Source of the DNA: a virus
DNA: 64,000 nucleotides
IMG/VR virus record: IMGVR_UViG_3300034109_000283
Location: 44,458 to 108,457 of that record
Direction: 5' to 3' (one strand)
Notes under the pieces: generated by a model
Databases searched by the model: none
What the model was told of the DNA's origin: nothing
What the model saw: only the letters and a program-made list of their open reading frames with translations
In this document: positions 1,602-51,480 of the stretch, piece after piece
Layout of the letters: the number at the start of each line of letters is the position of its first letter
How positions within the stretch are numbered: position 1 is the stretch's first letter
Translations under genes and position numbers: made by a program

Positions 1602-1910
1602 ATGGAAATTATTATCATTGCTGGCGTTGTAATTCTTGCAGGTTGGTACATCTTTTTTCGTCAACCCAAGAAGTCAGTAAGTGACCCAGTTGTTGCTGCA
1701 CCATACAAAGTTGAGGCAGAACCAGCTCCAGTCGTAGAAGCCAAGGTAGAAGCACCTAAGGTTGAAGAAACTGCTGTTCCAGAGACAAAGGTTGAAGCTC
1801 AACCCAAAAAGCGTGCCGCTAAGCCAAAGGCTCCCGCAGCACCTAAGGCTGAAAAGAAGGCCCCGGCTAAGACAGCTAAAGCTAAGTCAACCCCACGCCG
1901 AGTTAAGTAA
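1602..1910 (+). CDS. Membrane-anchored Ala/Lys/Pro-rich tail protein
   Basis: A 102-residue plus-strand protein with one N-terminal transmembrane segment (about residues 3-20) followed by a low-complexity tail rich in Ala, Pro, Glu and Lys. The last 40 residues are strongly basic, like histone H1-type tails (KAPAAPKAEKKAPAKTAKAK). The Shine-Dalgarno AGGAG lies 8 bases before the ATG, and a late-promoter-like GTAAATAG lies further upstream. No enzyme motif is seen. It could tether nucleic acid to the membrane, but that is speculation. It runs codirectionally into the phosphoesterase-like gene 6 bases later. Confidence 0.65.
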   Translation: MEIIIIAGVVILAGWYIFFRQPKKSVSDPVVAAPYKVEAEPAPVVEAKVEAPKVEETAVPETKVEAQPKKRAAKPKAPAAPKAEKKAPAKTAKAKSTPRRVK

Positions 1911-1916
1911 TAATTC

Positions 1917-2615
1917 ATGGGCGTCGGATTTGACGTAATAAGCGATTTGCATTTATCACCAAATGATAGTTTCAATTGGGAAGGTAAAGCAACTAGTTTA
2001 TATTTGATTGTAGCAGGAAATGTAAGCTCTGATGTACGAACCATTGGACTTACATTATCCCATCTTTCAAAGTTTTATCAAGGGGTGTTTTATACCCCAG
2101 GTGCGCTTGAGTATCACGAAGTTTCAGATGTAGATGCTAGAACGGATGAGATATTAAAGATAACGAAAAGAATCGGCAATGTCGCCGTTCTTTACCATCA
2201 TGTTGTTATAATAGACGGCATAGCGGTATTAGGAACAAATGGTTGGTATGGAAATACTAACACTGATGACCCAGTTGCAAACTTAAAAGTTGAATTACTA
2301 AGAAATGATGACATTCATTATCTTAAAAATTCAATAGAAAAATTACAAAAACATTTGGATGTAGCTAAAATTATTGTAGTTACAAACTCAGTCCCTAACA
2401 CTAATTTATACTTCGGAGAAATACCCGATTATGTTAGAGGACAATTGCCATTAGATATTGCTCTATATGCGGATACTCAGTCAAAAGTATCTCATTGGGT
2501 GTTTGGCACACATGGAAAAATAGTTGACATTACTGTTAATAACATCAACTATTTGAACAACCCAAGTTATAAAATTAAACCTTACTGGGCTAAAAGACTA
2601 GAAATAACTGTTTAG
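1917..2615 (+). CDS. Degenerate calcineurin-like metallophosphoesterase
   Basis: 232 residues with the outline of the calcineurin-like phosphoesterase fold. The first motif is intact (DVISDLHLS, D-x-H). The next is altered: GD-x-x becomes AGNVSSD, the GNHE block becomes GALEYHE, the following His block reads TNSVP, and the final GHxH reads GTHGK. Several metal ligands are therefore missing or substituted, so catalysis may be lost or metal binding changed. Its 3' end overlaps the end of convergent clpS by 4 bases. The family call comes from motif order and length, not from an alignment. Confidence 0.6.
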   Translation: MGVGFDVISDLHLSPNDSFNWEGKATSLYLIVAGNVSSDVRTIGLTLSHLSKFYQGVFYTPGALEYHEVSDVDARTDEILKITKRIGNVAVLYHHVVIIDGIAVLGTNGWYGNTNTDDPVANLKVELLRNDDIHYLKNSIEKLQKHLDVAKIIVVTNSVPNTNLYFGEIPDYVRGQLPLDIALYADTQSKVSHWVFGTHGKIVDITVNNINYLNNPSYKIKPYWAKRLEITV

Positions 2616-2917
2616 GCTTCTGCTTCAACTTTAATTTGAAGAGGATAACCTTGAGACCTTGCATCTACAGTTACCTCAATGCCTTTTTGCTCTGCAATTT
2701 CATAGGGTAAAATAGCAACAACAGCACTACCTTCTTCATGAATATTTTTAGTTATATTCGTGGCAGTTTCTGTGTTGTAATTAAAATAATCAATTAATGA
2801 TTTTACTACGAACTCCATTGTCGTTACATCATCGTTTATGTAAATGATTTTAAACAATGGGGGTTCTTGAAGTGAAAGATTGGGTTTAATCTTAATCTTG
2901 GTTTCAGCTTTAGACAT
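2612..2917 (-). CDS. clpS: ClpS, N-degron adaptor for ClpAP
   Basis: A 101-residue ClpS homologue. ClpS binds proteins with bulky N-terminal residues and hands them to ClpA-ClpP. The core block FKIIYINDDVTTMEFV is clear, and the specificity-pocket residues known from E. coli ClpS are all present (Asn28, Asp29, Asp30, Met34, His60). A short flexible N-terminal extension, needed in ClpS for delivery, precedes it. The Shine-Dalgarno AAGGA precedes the ATG. Its leader holds a hairpin and a late promoter that overlaps the hsp20 stop codon. A ClpA gene is present at 52.8-55.0 kb, so the pair could work together with host ClpP. Confidence 0.93.
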   Translation of the reverse strand: MSKAETKIKIKPNLSLQEPPLFKIIYINDDVTTMEFVVKSLIDYFNYNTETATNITKNIHEEGSAVVAILPYEIAEQKGIEVTVDARSQGYPLQIKVEAEA

Positions 2918-41911: not shown

Positions 41912-42616
41912 TTATTGAAAGATGTGATGGTTCTGTTCGCCGTAAATCTTAATATATTTTCCAGCAAGTGCATCAGCCATTACCTCAATTGGGCTACCGG
42001 GATAACTATCACCCGGTTGAATCATATTCAATTCACCTTGGCGAACATGCACCAACTCATGGAAAACAGTTCTAAGAATATCTACAAGGTTACGGTTTTT
42101 AGCATAAACCCAAACCTTATTGGAACCCTCAGTATGGCTACCTGTATGATGACCGTCTTGTGCTTCTTCGGTATCCATGCTAAGTTCTATTTCTGGGCGG
42201 GTTTGTAAATTCAATCGTTTACGAGCCCAATCCGCAAACTTATTAACTTCATCCTCTAAATCACACTCAACATTTGCTTCGTCTAATTTACCTTTTATCC
42301 ATTTATCTGGAGTTTCTTTATACTTTCGTTTAAATTTATTGTGTAATAACTCGCTTGTCATGTGATGGCGTTTAGCGATTTTTCTAATCAATTGATCAAT
42401 AGTATTGTAATCATGCTTTGATAAGCTAGGTAACTTTTTTGCTAATTCATGTTCTGGTGATTCATACATGCTTTCGCCGCCGCCACCTCCGTCACCACCA
42501 TCTGATTCGCCGGAGCCGAAACCAAAGTATCCGTAACCGGGAAAGAAATATCTACGTAAGGATTTTTTCCTAGACTTAGATTTTTTACGTTCGGTGATAA
42601 ATTCAGTCGCTCTCAT
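41912..42616 (-). CDS. Zinc metallopeptidase-like capsid-cargo protein
   Basis: 234 residues. The N-terminus MRATEFITERKK fits the capsid-targeting pattern with I-T-E cleavage. A basic, Gly-rich segment (about 10-55) follows, then a helical part. The C-terminal zinc site is VFHELVHVRQGE (H-E-x-x-H) followed by SPIEVMADALAGK, where Glu may be the third ligand. I infer a peptidase packaged in the head and delivered at infection. A late promoter lies 6 bases upstream of the ATG, with no Shine-Dalgarno. Confidence 0.7.
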   Translation of the reverse strand: MRATEFITERKKSKSRKKSLRRYFFPGYGYFGFGSGESDGGDGGGGGESMYESPEHELAKKLPSLSKHDYNTIDQLIRKIAKRHHMTSELLHNKFKRKYKETPDKWIKGKLDEANVECDLEDEVNKFADWARKRLNLQTRPEIELSMDTEEAQDGHHTGSHTEGSNKVWVYAKNRNLVDILRTVFHELVHVRQGELNMIQPGDSYPGSPIEVMADALAGKYIKIYGEQNHHIFQ

Positions 42617-43176: not shown

Positions 43177-44283
43177 TTAAACTCTTGCTAATACAAATTG
43201 ATTACCTTCAGCTTGTGGTTGATTTGCAATTTCTGGTGGTAAATCACTATATGGAATAGGCTTATACCCATATCTACCTGCGAATCTACGAATCATAGCT
43301 TGATACGCACTTGTCCTTGAGCCACCTTTACTCGCAAATAATATATAGTCCGGAACATTTATGTTTTTCAAATATTCGTTGAATGCTTTTAATACCGTAG
43401 CAAAAACTTTACCTGCATCACCTTCGCCAGTTTTTTCATATGTGCCACCTCTAGTGAAATCAAAATCAATCGCATTGATTTCTTCATGTAATGGGGTAAA
43501 GATAACTTCAATGTCACGACCTTCACTATCATGTGCTACCGCAACATTGGCATATGTTTCATCATCTTCATACCAACTTTCAATTGGAAAAGATTTTTCA
43601 ACATCAATTGATTCATTTGTTTGTTTTTGTTGTGTTATCCATTGTCTAGCTTGTGGCTTGTTGGGCGGTGCGTTCGTAAATTTAACTAATTTTTTATAGG
43701 TATTTTGAATTTGAGACTCGGTGCTAGCGCCATCACCACTATTGTCTATGATTGACAAATTATCAAATATCTGGGCAAATTTTCCAATATTGTTTTGAAC
43801 ATCATACCAGCTTTGTACTACCAATTTATCAGGTACAGTTCTTGTTCTTTGTTGATTGCGCTTTCGTGCTACTTCTAATTCTGTGTTGACAACAACAAGA
43901 AATGTATTATAACCTAATGCATCAAAGTTATTTTTTAACTTAGAAACTTTTTCATAGTCGTCGCCGGTACCGTCAATTACAAGACCCAATCTCCCGTCAA
44001 TTGCTAGTTCTGATTTATCAGCAGTGATATCTTTTGCTTTTTGTCTTACAACATCACGCTTTTCTTTTTCTTCAGGTGGCATTTTAGGATCAATTGCATG
44101 TTTTTTCATTAGATATTCAAAAGCAATATCACTATTGATGTTTACATATCCTAAAGCCTGTAACCCTAATTTTTGAGTAACATAACTTTTACCACTTCCG
44201 GGACCACCGATAATAAACACTGCTTTGAAAATAGCAGGGTCATTTACACCTTCACTGACATTAGTGAATTCTACGGCTCTCAT
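43177..44283 (-). CDS. P-loop kinase with repeated virion domain, capsid-cargo candidate
   Basis: 368 residues. N-terminus MRAVEFTNVSEG resembles the capsid-targeting set. Walker A GGPGSGKS is at 26-33, followed by a polynucleotide-kinase/zeta-toxin-like core (VIDGTGDDYEKV, then RNQQRTRTVPDKLV). From about 285 it carries a domain, TGEGDAGKVFATVL to RRFAGRYGY, also found at the end of the 840-residue protein. I infer a packaged kinase; the substrate is unknown. Its start overlaps the dps stop by one base. Confidence 0.7.
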   Translation of the reverse strand: MRAVEFTNVSEGVNDPAIFKAVFIIGGPGSGKSYVTQKLGLQALGYVNINSDIAFEYLMKKHAIDPKMPPEEKEKRDVVRQKAKDITADKSELAIDGRLGLVIDGTGDDYEKVSKLKNNFDALGYNTFLVVVNTELEVARKRNQQRTRTVPDKLVVQSWYDVQNNIGKFAQIFDNLSIIDNSGDGASTESQIQNTYKKLVKFTNAPPNKPQARQWITQQKQTNESIDVEKSFPIESWYEDDETYANVAVAHDSEGRDIEVIFTPLHEEINAIDFDFTRGGTYEKTGEGDAGKVFATVLKAFNEYLKNINVPDYILFASKGGSRTSAYQAMIRRFAGRYGYKPIPYSDLPPEIANQPQAEGNQFVLARV

Positions 44284-44726
44284 TATGCACGCTGTTTCTT
44301 AAGTATGCTACGCAACATCCAGCCATGTTTGCCATGTGCGTCAATGCGACTTGCTATGAAATCAGCAATGCCCTGTTCGTTTTCTTGTTCAGCAATAGGA
44401 AATGCTTGTTTCCACATGTTTAATAATGTGGCATTGTCTTGTTGTAATTCTGCAATCATTAATTCGGCACGAGGAATTTTAGTTTGATCTGGTATTTGGC
44501 TTAGTTCAGCAAAGCGAGTAATAGAACCAGGTGTATAACTATCTAATTGACGAATTAATTCTGCTGTTTGGTCAATAGCGTTATCATATACTTCTTCGTA
44601 CAAATTACCTAAAAACTCATGGTATTGTGGGAAATCTGGACCTTCCACATTCCAATGAAAGTTTTGTGCTTTAATTACAAAAGCATAGCTTGTTGCTAAT
44701 AATGTTTTAAGTGCGTCTGCTAACAT
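44283..44726 (-). CDS. dps: Dps-like ferritin-family protein
   Basis: A 147-residue four-helix Dps/ferritin-like protein. The ferroxidase signature starts KAQNFHWNVEGPDFPQYHEF and continues with YDNAIDQTAELIRQLD, matching Dps His/Asp/Glu positions. Dps forms 12-mers that oxidise iron and may coat DNA. It lies inside the cluster of candidate cargo proteins, so it could protect phage DNA from oxidation in the cell or be packaged; it lacks the targeting peptide itself. Confidence 0.85.
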   Translation of the reverse strand: MLADALKTLLATSYAFVIKAQNFHWNVEGPDFPQYHEFLGNLYEEVYDNAIDQTAELIRQLDSYTPGSITRFAELSQIPDQTKIPRAELMIAELQQDNATLLNMWKQAFPIAEQENEQGIADFIASRIDAHGKHGWMLRSILKKQRA

Positions 44727-44735
44727 AAATTACCT

Positions 44736-44855
44736 TTAATTATTTTTTGCAAATTCTGCTAATAAATCTCTTGCATGAGAAAAATCAATTGCCTGACAGT
44801 TGAAATCTTTCCATTCACCGCTTGCACATAACACTCTGAAATTGTATGTTTTCAT
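44736..44855 (-). CDS. 39-residue small protein
   Basis: Starts MKTYNFRVLCASGEWKDF and ends LLAEFAKNN. The ATG overlaps the stop of the upstream gene (TAATG). A beta-strand pair then a helix, similar in style to small phage proteins. Function unknown. Confidence 0.5.
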   Translation of the reverse strand: MKTYNFRVLCASGEWKDFNCQAIDFSHARDLLAEFAKNN

Positions 44856-45550
44856 TATTTCTTTCTACCCTGACAATGTGCTCTTTGACTGAATCCTTTT
44901 GGATTAGAACAGTTAATGCTACGCTTGTATTTTTCAGACCACTTTTCGTTAATTTCTTCTTCGTTGGTCATTGCCATAATACGGCGTTGTCCATGGCGCT
45001 TGAACTTATCAGTTTCTTGCTCATAAGTACCGGGCATCGGTAAGCCTTTACCACCACCGGTGTGAAATTCTTGGTCTGTGCCTTCTTCTACACTTTCAGA
45101 TTTGTTGCCCCAGTTGCTAGCACCTTTTTTACGGCACTTAACTAATGCGCCACTAGCATATGCAGAAGGCCATACTTTGTAACGGCTCTTTACTTTGTAG
45201 TAGCAAGCATCCTTCTTTTCATTAATCATTAATTCGCTAAACATTGCCCCACCACAATGTGGACATTTTTCTTCCATTACGCCTTCATTTGATTTTTTCT
45301 TAGTAGCAACATTGATTGCCTTGCCACTGCGCTCTGGATTAGGATCTTCTCTGCGCTTTTTACTAGCCGCATACTTGCGACCTTTCTTACCCAATGAATG
45401 TGCTTTTGCTTGTGGTAAACATTTTGGCTTACCTTCGCTATCATCACCTCTAGCACATGCGCCACGAATCTTACCATCAGGACCAAATCTTACCCACTTC
45501 TCTTTAAACCATTTTCTAAGATTTTCAGTAATGATTTCATTTGCTCTCAT
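44855..45550 (-). CDS. Basic Cys-rich capsid-cargo candidate
   Basis: 231 residues. N-terminus MRANEIITENLRKW fits the targeting pattern with I-T-E cleavage. Then come basic conserved blocks: KWVRFGPDGKIRGACARGDD, KRREDPNPERSG, a zinc knuckle CPHCGG, CYYKVKSRYKVWPSAYASG and a final CSNPKGFSQRAHCQGRKK. The Cys and basic content suggests nucleic acid binding with zinc. It is common in aquatic T4-type phages and unassigned. Likely packaged with DNA. Confidence 0.65.
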   Translation of the reverse strand: MRANEIITENLRKWFKEKWVRFGPDGKIRGACARGDDSEGKPKCLPQAKAHSLGKKGRKYAASKKRREDPNPERSGKAINVATKKKSNEGVMEEKCPHCGGAMFSELMINEKKDACYYKVKSRYKVWPSAYASGALVKCRKKGASNWGNKSESVEEGTDQEFHTGGGKGLPMPGTYEQETDKFKRHGQRRIMAMTNEEEINEKWSEKYKRSINCSNPKGFSQRAHCQGRKK

Positions 45551-45956
45551 TTTGTAAGCCCTTCATGATAGCACTTTCTTTTGGTACACAATTAGGTACC
45601 ATTTTGTCACCCTTCTTTTTCATACCAACTTGCTTATGGGTGTCCCAACATTTCTCATCTAATTTCTCTATTTCAGCTTGATTAGGCACATGTCTTGGCT
45701 TGTAATATCTTTGTGCTTGTCCCGCGCCACCACCAGTAGAATAAATTTGACCTTCGTCTACTTCTAATTCTTTTTTGGTTGCTTTTACAATTCCACTGAA
45801 TCTTTTGTTTGCTTTAGCTATTTTTTCTTGGGACTTAGGGTCATCTACATTGCTAAATGCTTCTTTATCTAAACGGCTGGCTTCTGCACCAGCTTTCTTT
45901 TTGTAACTTGCTAATGTTGCAGGACTTAACTCAAATAAAAATTCAGTAGATTTCAT
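45537..45956 (-). CDS. Capsid-cargo candidate
   Basis: 139 residues starting MKSTEFLFELSPATLASYKKK. L-F-E fits the cleavage rule. The next block (SYKKKAGAEASRLDKEAFSN) is a basic helix seen in many phage virion proteins. The C-terminal part has CWDTHKQVGMKKKGDKMVPNC. It overlaps the upstream part of the 231-residue gene by 14 bases. Function unknown. Confidence 0.6.
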   Translation of the reverse strand: MKSTEFLFELSPATLASYKKKAGAEASRLDKEAFSNVDDPKSQEKIAKANKRFSGIVKATKKELEVDEGQIYSTGGGAGQAQRYYKPRHVPNQAEIEKLDEKCWDTHKQVGMKKKGDKMVPNCVPKESAIMKGLQNESK

Positions 45957-45957
45957 A

Positions 45958-46767
45958 TTAGTCCTTTTTTACTTTTTCAGGTAAACCCTTATGCTTTGTG
46001 GCAGCAAAATCTTTAACATCGCCTTTAGTCATAGATTTAGCAACGCCTTTTAGTTCTTTGCTTGCACCTTTAATTTTTGCACCCTTTTGCATAGCATGTG
46101 CCATACCAAAGAATTTCTGTTGTGCTTTACTGACTGCTTTTTCATTTACCTTTGATTCACCTACGCCTCCACCTGCAATGACACCACCTGTCATTTCTTG
46201 CATCATTTTTTCATCATAGTATTCTTTTACTGCGTTTAGATAATCATTGGCTTTGATGAGTTTTTCTTGTACCCAACCTTCAATGCCTTCTTCTTCGCTG
46301 CGGTTTTGTAGTAATTCATAAATTGATTTAGCATTCTTCATTGTTGCTAAAACATCGCTGCGAGCCATTTCAACTTCGTGGTCTACACGACTTTGACCAT
46401 GCTGTACAAAGCCTGTTTTACGCTTCATTTTTGTTCCTGGAACAATGATTACATCATCTTCATCTAATTTAGCTTCTTCAACTTTTTTCTTATCATCCTG
46501 ATGTTGTTTGATTTTTTCTTCTGTATCTTTTTTCTGCTTGTTAGACTTATCAACATTTTTTTGTAGTTTACTTAAAAAGTCTTTTTTAGCTTCAGAAATA
46601 CTATTAGCGTATGGGCCTTTTTTCTTTGCCTTACCAGACATAACCTTTTCTGCTGGTTCAAGACCTTTTACATCAGGTCTTTTTTGTGTTTCGCCCATTG
46701 GTTTAGCAACAGTGGCGACTGCTCCTGCAGTTGTCATTTCATTAATGATAATTTGATTGATTTTCAT
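45958..46767 (-). CDS. Lys-rich capsid-cargo candidate
   Basis: 269 residues from the ATG at 46767, chosen because it yields the targeting-type N-terminus MKINQIIINEMTTAG (I-N-E). It is highly charged and helical (KLQKNVDKSNKQKKDTEEKI), with a central GFVQHGQSRVDHEVEMARSD segment and a basic tail (KSMTKGDVKDFAATKHKG). No enzyme motif. The pattern fits an internal head protein that contacts DNA. A late promoter lies about 24 bases upstream. Confidence 0.6.
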   Translation of the reverse strand: MKINQIIINEMTTAGAVATVAKPMGETQKRPDVKGLEPAEKVMSGKAKKKGPYANSISEAKKDFLSKLQKNVDKSNKQKKDTEEKIKQHQDDKKKVEEAKLDEDDVIIVPGTKMKRKTGFVQHGQSRVDHEVEMARSDVLATMKNAKSIYELLQNRSEEEGIEGWVQEKLIKANDYLNAVKEYYDEKMMQEMTGGVIAGGGVGESKVNEKAVSKAQQKFFGMAHAMQKGAKIKGASKELKGVAKSMTKGDVKDFAATKHKGLPEKVKKD

Positions 46768-46812: not shown

Positions 46813-49335
46813 TCAGAACTTCCCACTGGGTTTGAGTGTTGGGGGTATTCCTGCACGACTAATCTTGTTACCGAACTTTTTAGCGTCTTTTTTCATGGTG
46901 TCGGGCTTAATATCTACAGTTAATGCTGTTTTGAATCTTGGATCATTCTTTTCTGCGTTGCTAGGAATATATCCTGAAGCACCCTCTGCTACACCTTTAT
47001 TGGTATTTTCTATTCGTTTTAATTTGTATGAATTTGATCCAGGTTCTTCTCGTTTTTGTACTGTATATCCTAAACCAGTAGCAAATCGTTGAACTAATCT
47101 GTCGTATAGTTTTGTTCTGCTACCTGTAGGATCATCTTCTTTCACTGCGGAGAAAAATAAACTTGCAGGTTTTTTCTTCTTTATAAACTGTTGTATCGCA
47201 TGTAATACTGTAGCAAAGATTCTTTGAGCATCACCTTCGCCGGTTACTGCCTGACTGTTATTTCTATAGAATTCAACCATCCAATTCTTTTTATATTCAT
47301 TGTTGAACATGATGCTAAGATTAGTTCCATCTGGTAACTTAGCCAATGCGTCATAGTCTCCGTAGGCACTTTTCTCCCACTTAAGTGGATAGGGTTGGTC
47401 AAAGCCTTCATCAACTTTAGGTCTATAAGTTCTCCATCCGCCGGGCTGCACACCTACTGGACCTGATGTGTCGGGCATCTCACTAATTGCCCCGCGAAAC
47501 TGTCTATCTTTTAATCCACCATATGGATTGATAGCAGGAGTTTTCTCACCGGCGAATTGCAGTGTCTCGTCTTCCCCTAATCCTCTAACTCTGTCAAAGA
47601 AACTAGGAGTAGGTTTACCTTTTACTTCTCCATGTCTTTGATGTTGACCTGCATAGTCATAGTACTTACCTACAACATCAAATCCATGTGTAAAGAATAT
47701 AGCAGCTGGTGGAAGGCTCATCCGTAACATACCCACACGCTGTTTACCTTCTGGTGCTTGTACAACTTTATTGTCACCGTGTTTTACTTTTTGAAGCCAT
47801 GCATTTGGTTTGAGTCTTACTAACCATACATAAGGTTGTTCGCTAGCATAAGGCTTATCGTCTTTGAGATAATAACTTAATGGATAAAACCATAATGCTC
47901 TGCGCCCTTGTCCGGTTCCTATATAATCTACATCAAATTTAGGGTCATCAACATCAGGTGTTTGTCCAAACCCTTGTTTGGCACTGAATCCTAATTTATC
48001 ACTATCCGTAAATCGTACAAAGTACTCATTGATATTACCGCCATTTTTCTTAACATCGTTGATGATTTGTTGACGAACACTAGGAACCTTTGCTTCGTTG
48101 ACATTATATGTAGGATCAACTTTCTGACGAGGGATGCCTTTAGGTTGTTTAGGATCAAATGGGTCAATATCAGTTGTAGATAGACCTGTCTTTTGTAACG
48201 CTTTAATGTATTGATGTTCTAAATCTTCATCACCGAATGCCATGACAGTACTAGGAGGTCCCTTACCAAAGTCATGCTTGCCTAAACCCTTCATATTACT
48301 AATGTGTTGTCCTAGTTTGTACCAGTCATACACATCACTAACATCAACTCTTACTGTACCTGCCGGCATTGTTGGTTTAAACTCTGGGCCCGGAGGAGGT
48401 CCATTTGGATCATAATCTTCGTTTGTTCCGTCAGATGGTTGCCAAACTATATCTGTAGGATTTACTTGATGCTTTTTAACTAAGAAGTTGATAGCGTTAT
48501 CTAAATTGTTGTATGGTAAATTTTGTAAAATTTTAGTAAGGCTATATTTACTTAAATCTTTACCTTGCATCCGACGCAAATACAAATCAATTAATTGTTT
48601 TGGATCTTTGTATAAAATATTTTCTTCAATACTTAAATCAATACTATGCAATTTGTCACGCAATTGGTACAGTTTATCAATGTAACCCTGTGTGCGTAGT
48701 GCTTTATATGCTAAGTTTTCGGGACCAAACTCACCACCTTTATCTAAGCCTGCTTTTCTATATCGTTTAATAGTAGTAATAATGTTTTCAATTTGTTCTA
48801 GGTCTTTAGATTTTAATGCTTTCTTAATAATATGTAGTAGTTTATCGTATTTTTGTTTGGTGATGGTTTGGTCAAAATTTGCTCTGCGTTTTGTTGGAAT
48901 CTTTAGCCACTTATCTTGTAAAATGCTATACTCGCCTAAACTGACTACAGGTTCATTGCTGTCTTGTACATATAATTCAACTGGAACTCCGTGTACAGTT
49001 ATGTCGTGGCTATCATTATATAAATTCTTTTTTGCTGTGAAAAGTTCTTTGTAAACTTCATTATCGGGAAGCTTACTCATATCTACTAATATATGTAAAT
49101 CTAAATCGCTATGTTTTGTGTATGTATATGCGGCGTTTGAGCCTGAAATTGTAATATCTTTTACATCTAAATCTTTTATTCCCAATTCATCAATAAAATC
49201 TTTAGCGATTAAAATTAACTGGTTTTTTACTTCAGGATGTAATTTATTGTTCTCATCCCATAGGTTTTGATTCAATTCATCATGAAAAAAGATGGCGTCG
49301 CTTAATTTGAAAGATTCCAGTGTTTTAATGTCCAT
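46813..49335 (-). CDS. Large multidomain nucleotidyltransferase-like virion candidate
   Basis: 840 residues. The N-terminal domain has the polymerase-beta-type signature: ITISGSNAAY (Gly65, Ser66) and HSDLDLHI (Asp77, Asp79). The middle (about 360-600) includes VDYIGTGQGRRALWFYPLSYYL and YVWLVRLKP, an unknown domain. The C-terminal part carries the TGEGDA (698) to VQRFATGLGY domain shared with the kinase at 43.2 kb. It has no clear targeting peptide. The late promoter abuts its ATG. It could be an injected enzyme that modifies host RNA, protein or nucleotides. Confidence 0.6.
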   Translation of the reverse strand: MDIKTLESFKLSDAIFFHDELNQNLWDENNKLHPEVKNQLILIAKDFIDELGIKDLDVKDITISGSNAAYTYTKHSDLDLHILVDMSKLPDNEVYKELFTAKKNLYNDSHDITVHGVPVELYVQDSNEPVVSLGEYSILQDKWLKIPTKRRANFDQTITKQKYDKLLHIIKKALKSKDLEQIENIITTIKRYRKAGLDKGGEFGPENLAYKALRTQGYIDKLYQLRDKLHSIDLSIEENILYKDPKQLIDLYLRRMQGKDLSKYSLTKILQNLPYNNLDNAINFLVKKHQVNPTDIVWQPSDGTNEDYDPNGPPPGPEFKPTMPAGTVRVDVSDVYDWYKLGQHISNMKGLGKHDFGKGPPSTVMAFGDEDLEHQYIKALQKTGLSTTDIDPFDPKQPKGIPRQKVDPTYNVNEAKVPSVRQQIINDVKKNGGNINEYFVRFTDSDKLGFSAKQGFGQTPDVDDPKFDVDYIGTGQGRRALWFYPLSYYLKDDKPYASEQPYVWLVRLKPNAWLQKVKHGDNKVVQAPEGKQRVGMLRMSLPPAAIFFTHGFDVVGKYYDYAGQHQRHGEVKGKPTPSFFDRVRGLGEDETLQFAGEKTPAINPYGGLKDRQFRGAISEMPDTSGPVGVQPGGWRTYRPKVDEGFDQPYPLKWEKSAYGDYDALAKLPDGTNLSIMFNNEYKKNWMVEFYRNNSQAVTGEGDAQRIFATVLHAIQQFIKKKKPASLFFSAVKEDDPTGSRTKLYDRLVQRFATGLGYTVQKREEPGSNSYKLKRIENTNKGVAEGASGYIPSNAEKNDPRFKTALTVDIKPDTMKKDAKKFGNKISRAGIPPTLKPSGKF

Positions 49336-49339
49336 AAAG

Positions 49340-49346
49340 TATTTAT
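49340..49346 (-). promoter_or_regulatory. Late-type promoter abutting start
   Basis: AATAAATAC on the minus strand, 4 bases before the ATG at 49335, overlapping the stop of the 31-residue gene. Confidence 0.6.
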
Positions 49347-50433: not shown

Positions 50434-51480
50434 TTATTTTTCTTCTAGATAATCTAGATTTTCACTTTCAGTTATAGCAGCGATGCCCACGCCTACCCCT
50501 GCACTTGCTAATGTGTATTTGATTGTATCTTTCCAATTTTTACCATTAATGCGTGACACTAATGTTGGAATAACAGTATTAAGTATTCCTTGTAGTGCTA
50601 GATTAGTCTGTTGTGGATTTAGTCCCATACTTTGTGCAGAATTTAACACACCACCTGCTAATAATGCACCGACTGTTGTAATAATGCCACCTTGCAAGTA
50701 TGGGTTCTCTTTGCCCTTTTTAAGTATGTCTAGTACTTTTCTTCTGATCGTAGGATCATCAGTCTTACTTAATAATTCACGTGCCTGATCAACATAATCA
50801 GGCACTTTTTCTTTTTGTACATCAGCTATAACTGGCTTATAGAAATCAATTACTGCGTTCGCTACTGGACTTGTTTCTTTATCTTCCGCCACATCTTGTG
50901 CGCCCATAACCTGATCAAACATACCAACAACTGTTTGTGCTAATTTAGGATTCTTTTGTGCAGCAGGATACAAACTCATAACAAGTGCTGTCTTGCGTTT
51001 GTCATTCAATGTAGGCCATGCCTTGCGAATTTCTGTAGCACTCTTGATGCCGGGTCCAAATGTCACAGTGGGTAAATATGCCATGTAAGCATGTTTACTA
51101 AATGGTTGTAAATCTTTTCCTGTATATGGTTGAAAGTAAGCTGGGCTACCATCTTTCTTTGTTCCGCCAGGCTGTGGAGCTTCATTTCTATCTTTTTCAC
51201 TGCGAACAAATATTAGTACATCTTCGTCGGGATTATAATTGCTTGTGATTTCTTTTGCCTGAAATGGACTCTTAACTTGAACAAATCTTCCTGGTGCTAC
51301 ACCTGCTAACTTAGCTAATTTTTCTTTTAGTGCGAAGGGAAAAGGTCTTTCGCTTTGATCGTTTGTAGCAGCTACATATACATCAGCATTTGGAAATGCT
51401 TTTAATGCAGACTGGTATAACGCATAGTGTCCTGCGTGAAATGGATGAAACCCACCTGGCATTATAACAATCTGTTTCAT
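50434..51480 (-). CDS. NMN adenylyltransferase-like nucleotidyltransferase with C-terminal membrane-type region
   Basis: 348 residues. MPGGFHPFHAGHYALY has the H-x-G-H motif (15-18), and GPGIKSATEIRKAW is the second nucleotide-binding motif, as in NadM/NadD or cytidylyltransferases. After residue 200 there is a helical region and a Gly/Ala-rich stretch (ITTVGALLAGGVL; ASAGVGVGIAAI), then ITESENLDYLEEK, which contains I-T-E like the targeting peptides but at the C-terminus. A role in NAD metabolism or virion assembly is possible. Confidence 0.65.
   Translation of the reverse strand: MKQIVIMPGGFHPFHAGHYALYQSALKAFPNADVYVAATNDQSERPFPFALKEKLAKLAGVAPGRFVQVKSPFQAKEITSNYNPDEDVLIFVRSEKDRNEAPQPGGTKKDGSPAYFQPYTGKDLQPFSKHAYMAYLPTVTFGPGIKSATEIRKAWPTLNDKRKTALVMSLYPAAQKNPKLAQTVVGMFDQVMGAQDVAEDKETSPVANAVIDFYKPVIADVQKEKVPDYVDQARELLSKTDDPTIRRKVLDILKKGKENPYLQGGIITTVGALLAGGVLNSAQSMGLNPQQTNLALQGILNTVIPTLVSRINGKNWKDTIKYTLASAGVGVGIAAITESENLDYLEEK

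Follow-up and report, generated by a model that had tools for sequence, protein, structure and literature searches.

The internal proteins of phage T4 and the polyvalent proteins of mobile elements are already known, and they are the closest described systems for the protein analyzed here. The T4 prohead protease gp21 cuts after L/I-x-E (PMC9026906), and the T4 proteins IPI-III are late, head-internal and interchangeable cargoes, each with a short leader that ends in this motif (PMC9026906, PMC12373910). T4 Alt, a packaged ADP-ribosyltransferase (ART), possesses a site at ITE-6 and a 63-residue C-terminal propeptide at LTE-619 (PMC5694885). Polyvalent proteins, as described by Iyer et al. in 2017, are phage-carried multidomain conflict proteins that combine ART, GNAT, nucleotidyltransferase and peptidase domains in one chain; some of them, N4 vRNAP and TraC1, are transferred whole. 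Among polyvalent proteins, those with pol-beta-type nucleotidyltransferases are confined to conjugative elements, and processing has been proposed to depend on internal metallopeptidases (PMC5512222).

We analyzed a 64,000-nucleotide window of an IMG/VR virus fragment of 108,457 bp and found that an 840-residue protein encoded in it is likely to be a polyprotein of head-internal cargo, made late by T4-like giant phages, which gp21 would cut and which would leave the head together with the DNA. It resembles IPI-III in these respects, but differs from them in having several cargoes per chain with sites between them, an enzyme domain in the carrier and a non-standard leader. The closest parallel in processing is T4 Alt: most relatives of the 840-residue protein carry [VILM]xE at residue 5 together with a 56-residue tail. 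This likeness concerns the processing layout; the head domain is a nucleotidyltransferase instead of an ART, and exchangeable cargo lies between head domain and tail. ART, GNAT and nucleotidyltransferase domains are shared with polyvalent proteins, but here, unlike there, a phage head protease is the candidate processing enzyme. A literature search of incomplete coverage found no account of polyproteins in which several cargoes are bounded by sites for a prohead protease.

The 840-Residue Protein and Its Carrier Architecture

The open reading frame has an ATG start and occupies positions 46813..49335 of the minus strand, exactly where the preliminary description had placed it; the plus strand across the same interval contains many stop codons. 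All window features given below lie on the minus strand. The residues highlighted in the preliminary description (G65-S66, D77-x-D79, ALWFYPL at 480-486 and YVWLVRL at 502-508) were likewise found at their claimed positions. Identical copies of the protein are present in other contigs, full length in one (L003) and partial in two (L004, L005), and the reading frame is therefore neither a chance product nor an assembly accident. Relatives are encoded by about 250 viral contigs.

Three blocks, referred to here as NT, LD and tail, recur in 49 non-redundant relatives. The NT domain (residues 1-236; 48628..49335) is followed by a linker (237-305; 48421..48627), which is the first place of insertion and accommodates 0-500 residues in relatives. 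The LD block (306-414; 48094..48420; PGPEFKPTMPAGT..VSDVYDWYKLGQ..YNVNE) ends in VNE, a predicted cut, and the conserved tail of 56 residues (785-840; 46816..46983) begins with GASGYIPSNAEKNDPRFKTALTVDIKP. With a mean identity of 84%, compared with 65% for NT, LD is the most conserved block of the carrier. It is present in about 290 viral contigs, and it is found alone behind a leader in proteins of 129-131 residues, as well as behind deaminases and HAD-like phosphatases; two of the tiny proteins, L218 (131 residues) and L223 (129 residues), consist of leader and LD only. A profile search of LD against the PDB gave no convincing match, and LD had no match in deposited phages.

The stretch from LD to the tail, which we call the slot, varies from 0 to 560 residues among the 49 relatives and has many unrelated contents. 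In about eight members it is empty, and YNVxE is joined straight to [AVSI]SGYIP(S). Domains recognized in slots and relatives comprise GNAT, cytidine deaminase, a DUF6934-like domain and the domain designated MID below; ART-PolyVal is positioned after the tail, amidoligase occurs among the long forms, and matches to Tpt1/KptA-like proteins are weak. Forms of 1300-1800 residues have their modules in other orders, and a changed order is also seen in family members of 1500-1800 residues with amidoligase-like domains (L066, L068, L069, L075, L081). As judged from these sequences, the middle and C-terminal parts of the 840-residue protein are interchangeable modules.

The Nucleotidyltransferase Domain

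NT combines a pol-beta-type nucleotidyltransferase with a helical bundle. Its signature contains G65-S66 (49138..49143) and the metal-binding carboxylates D77-x-D79 (49099..49107), and E120 in the segment PVELYVQ (48976..48978) is the probable third catalytic carboxylate. In an alignment of 37 sequences, which includes cyanophage homologs with 37-38% identity, G65, S76, D77, D79, H81 and E120 are invariant; S66 is conserved in more than 90% of the sequences and is replaced by Gly in the cyanophages. With a limit of E<=0.01, the Pfam family NTP_transf_2 is matched by 23 of the 49 members; the match of the 840-residue protein is slightly too weak to pass the cut-off. An AlphaFold2 model of residues 1-414 (confidence about 85 in NT and about 65 in LD) yielded Foldseek matches to AAD(9) and AadA adenylyltransferases, CD-NTases and MNT antitoxins, the best of them being AAD(9) (E 6e-4, probability 0.98, 13% identity). 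These proteins have the NT fold in common with the 840-residue protein; however, at 13% identity and with poor superposition beyond the core, they are too distant for a substrate to be deduced. The nucleotidyltransferase site proposed in the preliminary description is thus backed by the motifs, the third acid, the near-cut-off family match and the fold matches, and from its sequence NT is probably an active pol-beta-type enzyme with all three acids.

Among cellular genomes, the search with the NT family returned a single match on a contig (L228) filed under a Methanobrevibacter metagenome-assembled genome, which is likely to be a mis-binned phage contig.

Proposed Cargo Modules of the 840-Residue Protein

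The slot of the 840-residue protein contains four segments. MID (residues 415-588; 47572..48093), with the motifs ALWFYPL and YVWLVRL, ends in LGE and has a weakly ART-like fold. It is followed by a 31-residue spacer module (589-619; 47479..47571; DETLQFAGEKTPAINPYGGLKDRQFRGAISE), found in ten carrier proteins, all of which have hydrophobic-x-Glu where the module ends and most of which also have it where the module starts, and by a 24-residue peptide (620-643; 47407..47478) that ends in VDE. The DUF6934-like module (644-784; 46984..47406), hereafter DUF, ends in VAE.

The preliminary description had recognized a middle domain and called for a prediction of its structure. Such a domain is present; since it occurs elsewhere as a stand-alone protein with a leader of its own, it is probably a separate cargo module rather than part of the NT enzyme. 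Its predicted structure (confidence 84) appears ART-like: the matches listed from the PDB are PARP/ART catalytic domains, but weak ones (E>=0.07, TM<=0.28), and the best match in BFVD reached E 2e-3, with two ART-PolyVal-like entries further down. R441, S451, Y484 and Q515 are invariant in MID, and the MID alignment contains no conserved counterpart of the catalytic Glu of the ART R/H-S/Y-E set. We regard the model-based resemblance to ARTs as a weak lead and not as a result. A sequence-profile search of MID against the PDB gave immunoglobulin-like chance matches only, the corresponding search with DUF gave nothing convincing, and MID had no match in deposited phages.

A shared C-terminal domain had also been proposed. 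Sharing is borne out, as residues of about 634-783 match both the end of the open reading frame at 43177..44283 and Pfam DUF6934; the terminal position is not, because the separate conserved tail of 56 residues comes after this part.

Predicted Protease Sites at Module Edges

The edges within the 840-residue protein coincide with hydrophobic-x-Glu sites, namely VNE414, LGE588, ISE619, VDE643 and VAE784. The motif is short, and in all there are 11 such sites in the protein, some of them inside domains, compared with 8.4 expected by chance. Among relatives, 31 unrelated contexts immediately before the tail were compared. Of these, 29 have V, I, L or M at P3, against an expectation of 20% (p=2e-18), while the residue at P2 varies; P3 is the actual test here, because Glu served as the anchor of the search and hence occupies P1 in every case. 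Three further tail contexts have the site in two instances. DUF is preceded by the site in 18/18 distinct contexts, several of which represent the same YNVxE carrier edge; one of the contexts is that of the cultured Vibrio phage nt-1, with the edge NLTE/AFDKP (the slash denotes the predicted cut here and below). Breakpoints between modules, which are not independent events, lie within three residues of a site in 51% of the cases, compared with 10% of random positions, and when ten residues are compared at P1, none but Glu reaches such enrichment.

The upstream edge of LD served as a negative control and has no site preference (10/36, p=0.17). It was ruled out as a cut site, and consequently some module edges are not cuts. 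A fixed linker such as GVAEG was also considered and rejected, since a motif search found nearly none; the rule is therefore hydrophobic-x-Glu and not a fixed peptide. The N terminus of the 840-residue protein itself (MDIKTLESF) is without a cut site and thus does not represent a standard leader ending in L/I-x-E; among its 49 relatives, 42 carry [VILM]xE at this end, at residue 5.

Leaders on Stand-Alone Modules

Modules of the carrier proteins, and solo homologs of NT, also occur behind short leaders of their own, which resemble the capsid targeting sequence of the T4 internal proteins. Outside the carrier, 25 of 29 copies of MID begin with a leader such as MRATEFITE/A, in register with NVNE/A of the 840-residue protein; in the remaining four, MID is preceded by another domain, with ITE/, LLE/, ISE/ or VKE/ at the junction. 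Three proteins in which a GNAT-like domain is fused to MID, with ITE/, LLE/ or ISE/ between the two (L133, L134, L136), constitute a second independent multi-cargo protein. DUF is found with the leader MRANEFVIE/AFDQPY (L081), and GNAT with MRASEFITE/AKLVDY (L091), to be compared with NVNE/AKLVEF in a carrier (L020). In total, 87 of 773 open reading frames bear a leader; shuffled sequences averaged 12.7 and never exceeded 22. A different multi-module protein (L064) contains the DUF cassette of the 840-residue protein at 93% DNA identity, and the match starts from the Glu codon. This protein (1638..2810 of its contig) starts with DUF, continues with short modules and finishes with a part resembling HELVH metallopeptidases; LVE/, VAE/, VAE/ and VNE/ stand between the modules.

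A Homolog in Virions of S-CREM2

The NT homolog of cyanophage S-CREM2 is ORF156 (126012-126725 of its record), for which six unique peptides were detected by mass spectrometry of CsCl-purified virions (PMC10665884). Together with other solo NT proteins of cyanophages (phrog_36119), it shares a homologous NT domain, the same catalytic residues and a short leader (MKKLISE/L); these proteins differ from the carrier in having neither LD nor slot nor tail. ORF154, a cytidylyltransferase, and ORF155 were also found in the virions (PMC10665884). ORF154, which lies two genes before the NT homolog, bears the leader MKNFSSFLTE/A. The leader pattern, which had been fixed before the virion data were seen, marks 6 of 130 S-CREM2 proteins; all six are present in the virion, and the pattern is absent from all 79 proteins that went undetected (Fisher p=0.003, or 2e-4 when known structural proteins are left out). 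ORF12 of the same phage (L238, 7704..10313), annotated as a Cas9-like nuclease and found in the virion by others, is without the leader pattern.

Late Promoter and Phage Lineage

Just upstream of the ATG codon lies ATAAATA (49340..49346), an element resembling T4-type late promoters; late promoters TATAAATA/NATAAATA have been described (PMC2984593). Of 46 relatives, 34 have this element no more than 60 nt before their start, whereas 1.6% of random 60-nt stretches contain it; this is sequence evidence that points to late expression of the cargo gene. Genes for gp21 (Peptidase_S77) and gp23 are present in all five related contigs larger than 200 kb; neither was found in 19 smaller fragments, among them the 108-kb source fragment. 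The gp23 proteins of the related contigs contain LLAE/SSAG or YLKE/NASAG in their N termini and are 65-69% identical to their counterparts in jumbo T4-like phages, for instance PA5oct and Vibrio phage 2.275.O.

Proposed Role and Alternative Explanations

We suggest that NT, LD and tail form a fixed carrier with exchangeable cargo between LD and tail, represented here by ART-like and DUF6934-like domains. After late synthesis, the chain would be recruited into the prohead core; both recruitment and presence in the head are proposed by analogy and from the S-CREM2 homolog. A gp21-type prohead protease would then release NT-LD (1-414), MID (415-588), DUF (644-784) and the tail (785-840), and the freed proteins would be ejected with the DNA, so that MID and DUF could act separately, while NT would transfer a nucleotide to a host target. 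The view of the preliminary description that the protein is injected is well supported by inference from the late promoter, the sites at module edges, the leaders on stand-alone modules and the homolog in S-CREM2 virions (PMC10665884). The toxin-like character suggested there, and the choice of host RNA or protein as target of nucleotide addition, gained no such support.

Packaging and ejection of the protein as an uncut effector of the polyvalent type would leave hydrophobic-x-Glu as a favoured linker at recombination joints. Several conflict-type enzyme domains do share one chain here, encoded by a mobile element, the cargoes overlap with those of polyvalent proteins (ART-PolyVal, GNAT), and precedents for transfer of the whole chain exist in N4 vRNAP and TraC1; the hallmark domains ArdC-N, zincin peptidase and DdrB-ParB were not found in the 840-residue protein, and a DUF6782 metallopeptidase is weakly matched in two relatives. 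We nevertheless hold transfer in uncut form to be improbable, because conservation of P3 and P1 with a free P2 fits a protease site and not a linker or recombination sequence, because the leaders of stand-alone copies end at the very same edge, and because the lineage encodes gp21. An unpackaged enzyme acting in the cytoplasm after infection, for instance in RNA repair or nucleotide metabolism, would be in line with other pol-beta nucleotidyltransferases of jumbo phages (RlaP, CCA-adding) that have been placed in RNA repair (PMC7824862). The late promoter, the virion-borne S-CREM2 homolog, the leaders and the cut sites make such a location highly improbable, and a role of NT in RNA repair was judged unlikely given the promoter and the virion detection.

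Packaging and cutting as proposed would also be compatible with a carrier whose conserved NT, LD and tail serve mainly in head assembly, as core or propeptide, with the NT site being a relic or structural. LD is more conserved than NT, head proteins of giant phages have long propeptides that are cut several times (PMC10052503), and T4 Alt has propeptides at both termini (PMC5694885). However, cyanophage homologs that have neither LD nor tail still retain D77, D79 and E120 without exception, which argues for catalysis and renders a mainly architectural role unlikely. Our preferred reading therefore remains that of a cut and ejected polyprotein with a catalytic head domain, in which packaging, cutting, ejection, NT activity and the choice of substrate are inferred.

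Extended to the whole family of aquatic giant T4-like phages, the data make it likely that the prohead protease serves as a general device for cargo release and that effector cassettes bounded by hydrophobic-x-Glu are swapped freely between single leader-tagged proteins and polyproteins with several cargoes. If so, a single gene would deliver several separate enzymes into the host, which would explain how large phages bring varied enzymes for host takeover into the cell. The sequence rule, a leader or a module edge with hydrophobic-x-Glu, predicts packaged phage proteins and fitted the virion proteomics of S-CREM2; many uncharacterized injected proteins are delimited by it as well, and their domains thereby become separately testable.

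Neighbouring Genes

Several genes near the carrier gene encode proteins with leaders. The one at 45958..46767 has the leader MKINQIIINE/M and a C-terminal DUF3008, and those at 45537..45956 and 44855..45550 begin with MKSTEFLFE/L and MRANEIITE/N, respectively; the product of 41912..42616 combines MRATEFITE/R with a HELVH zinc-peptidase-like motif. At 43177..44283, a zeta-toxin-like P-loop kinase (Pfam PF06414, E 8e-13) that starts with MRAVEFTNVSE/G is fused to a DUF6934-like module and is probably another packaged enzyme. The gene for this kinase overlaps by one base with a ferritin-like gene (44283..44726). A cytidylyltransferase-like gene (50434..51480) lies two genes upstream of the NT gene, a neighbourhood similar to that in S-CREM2.
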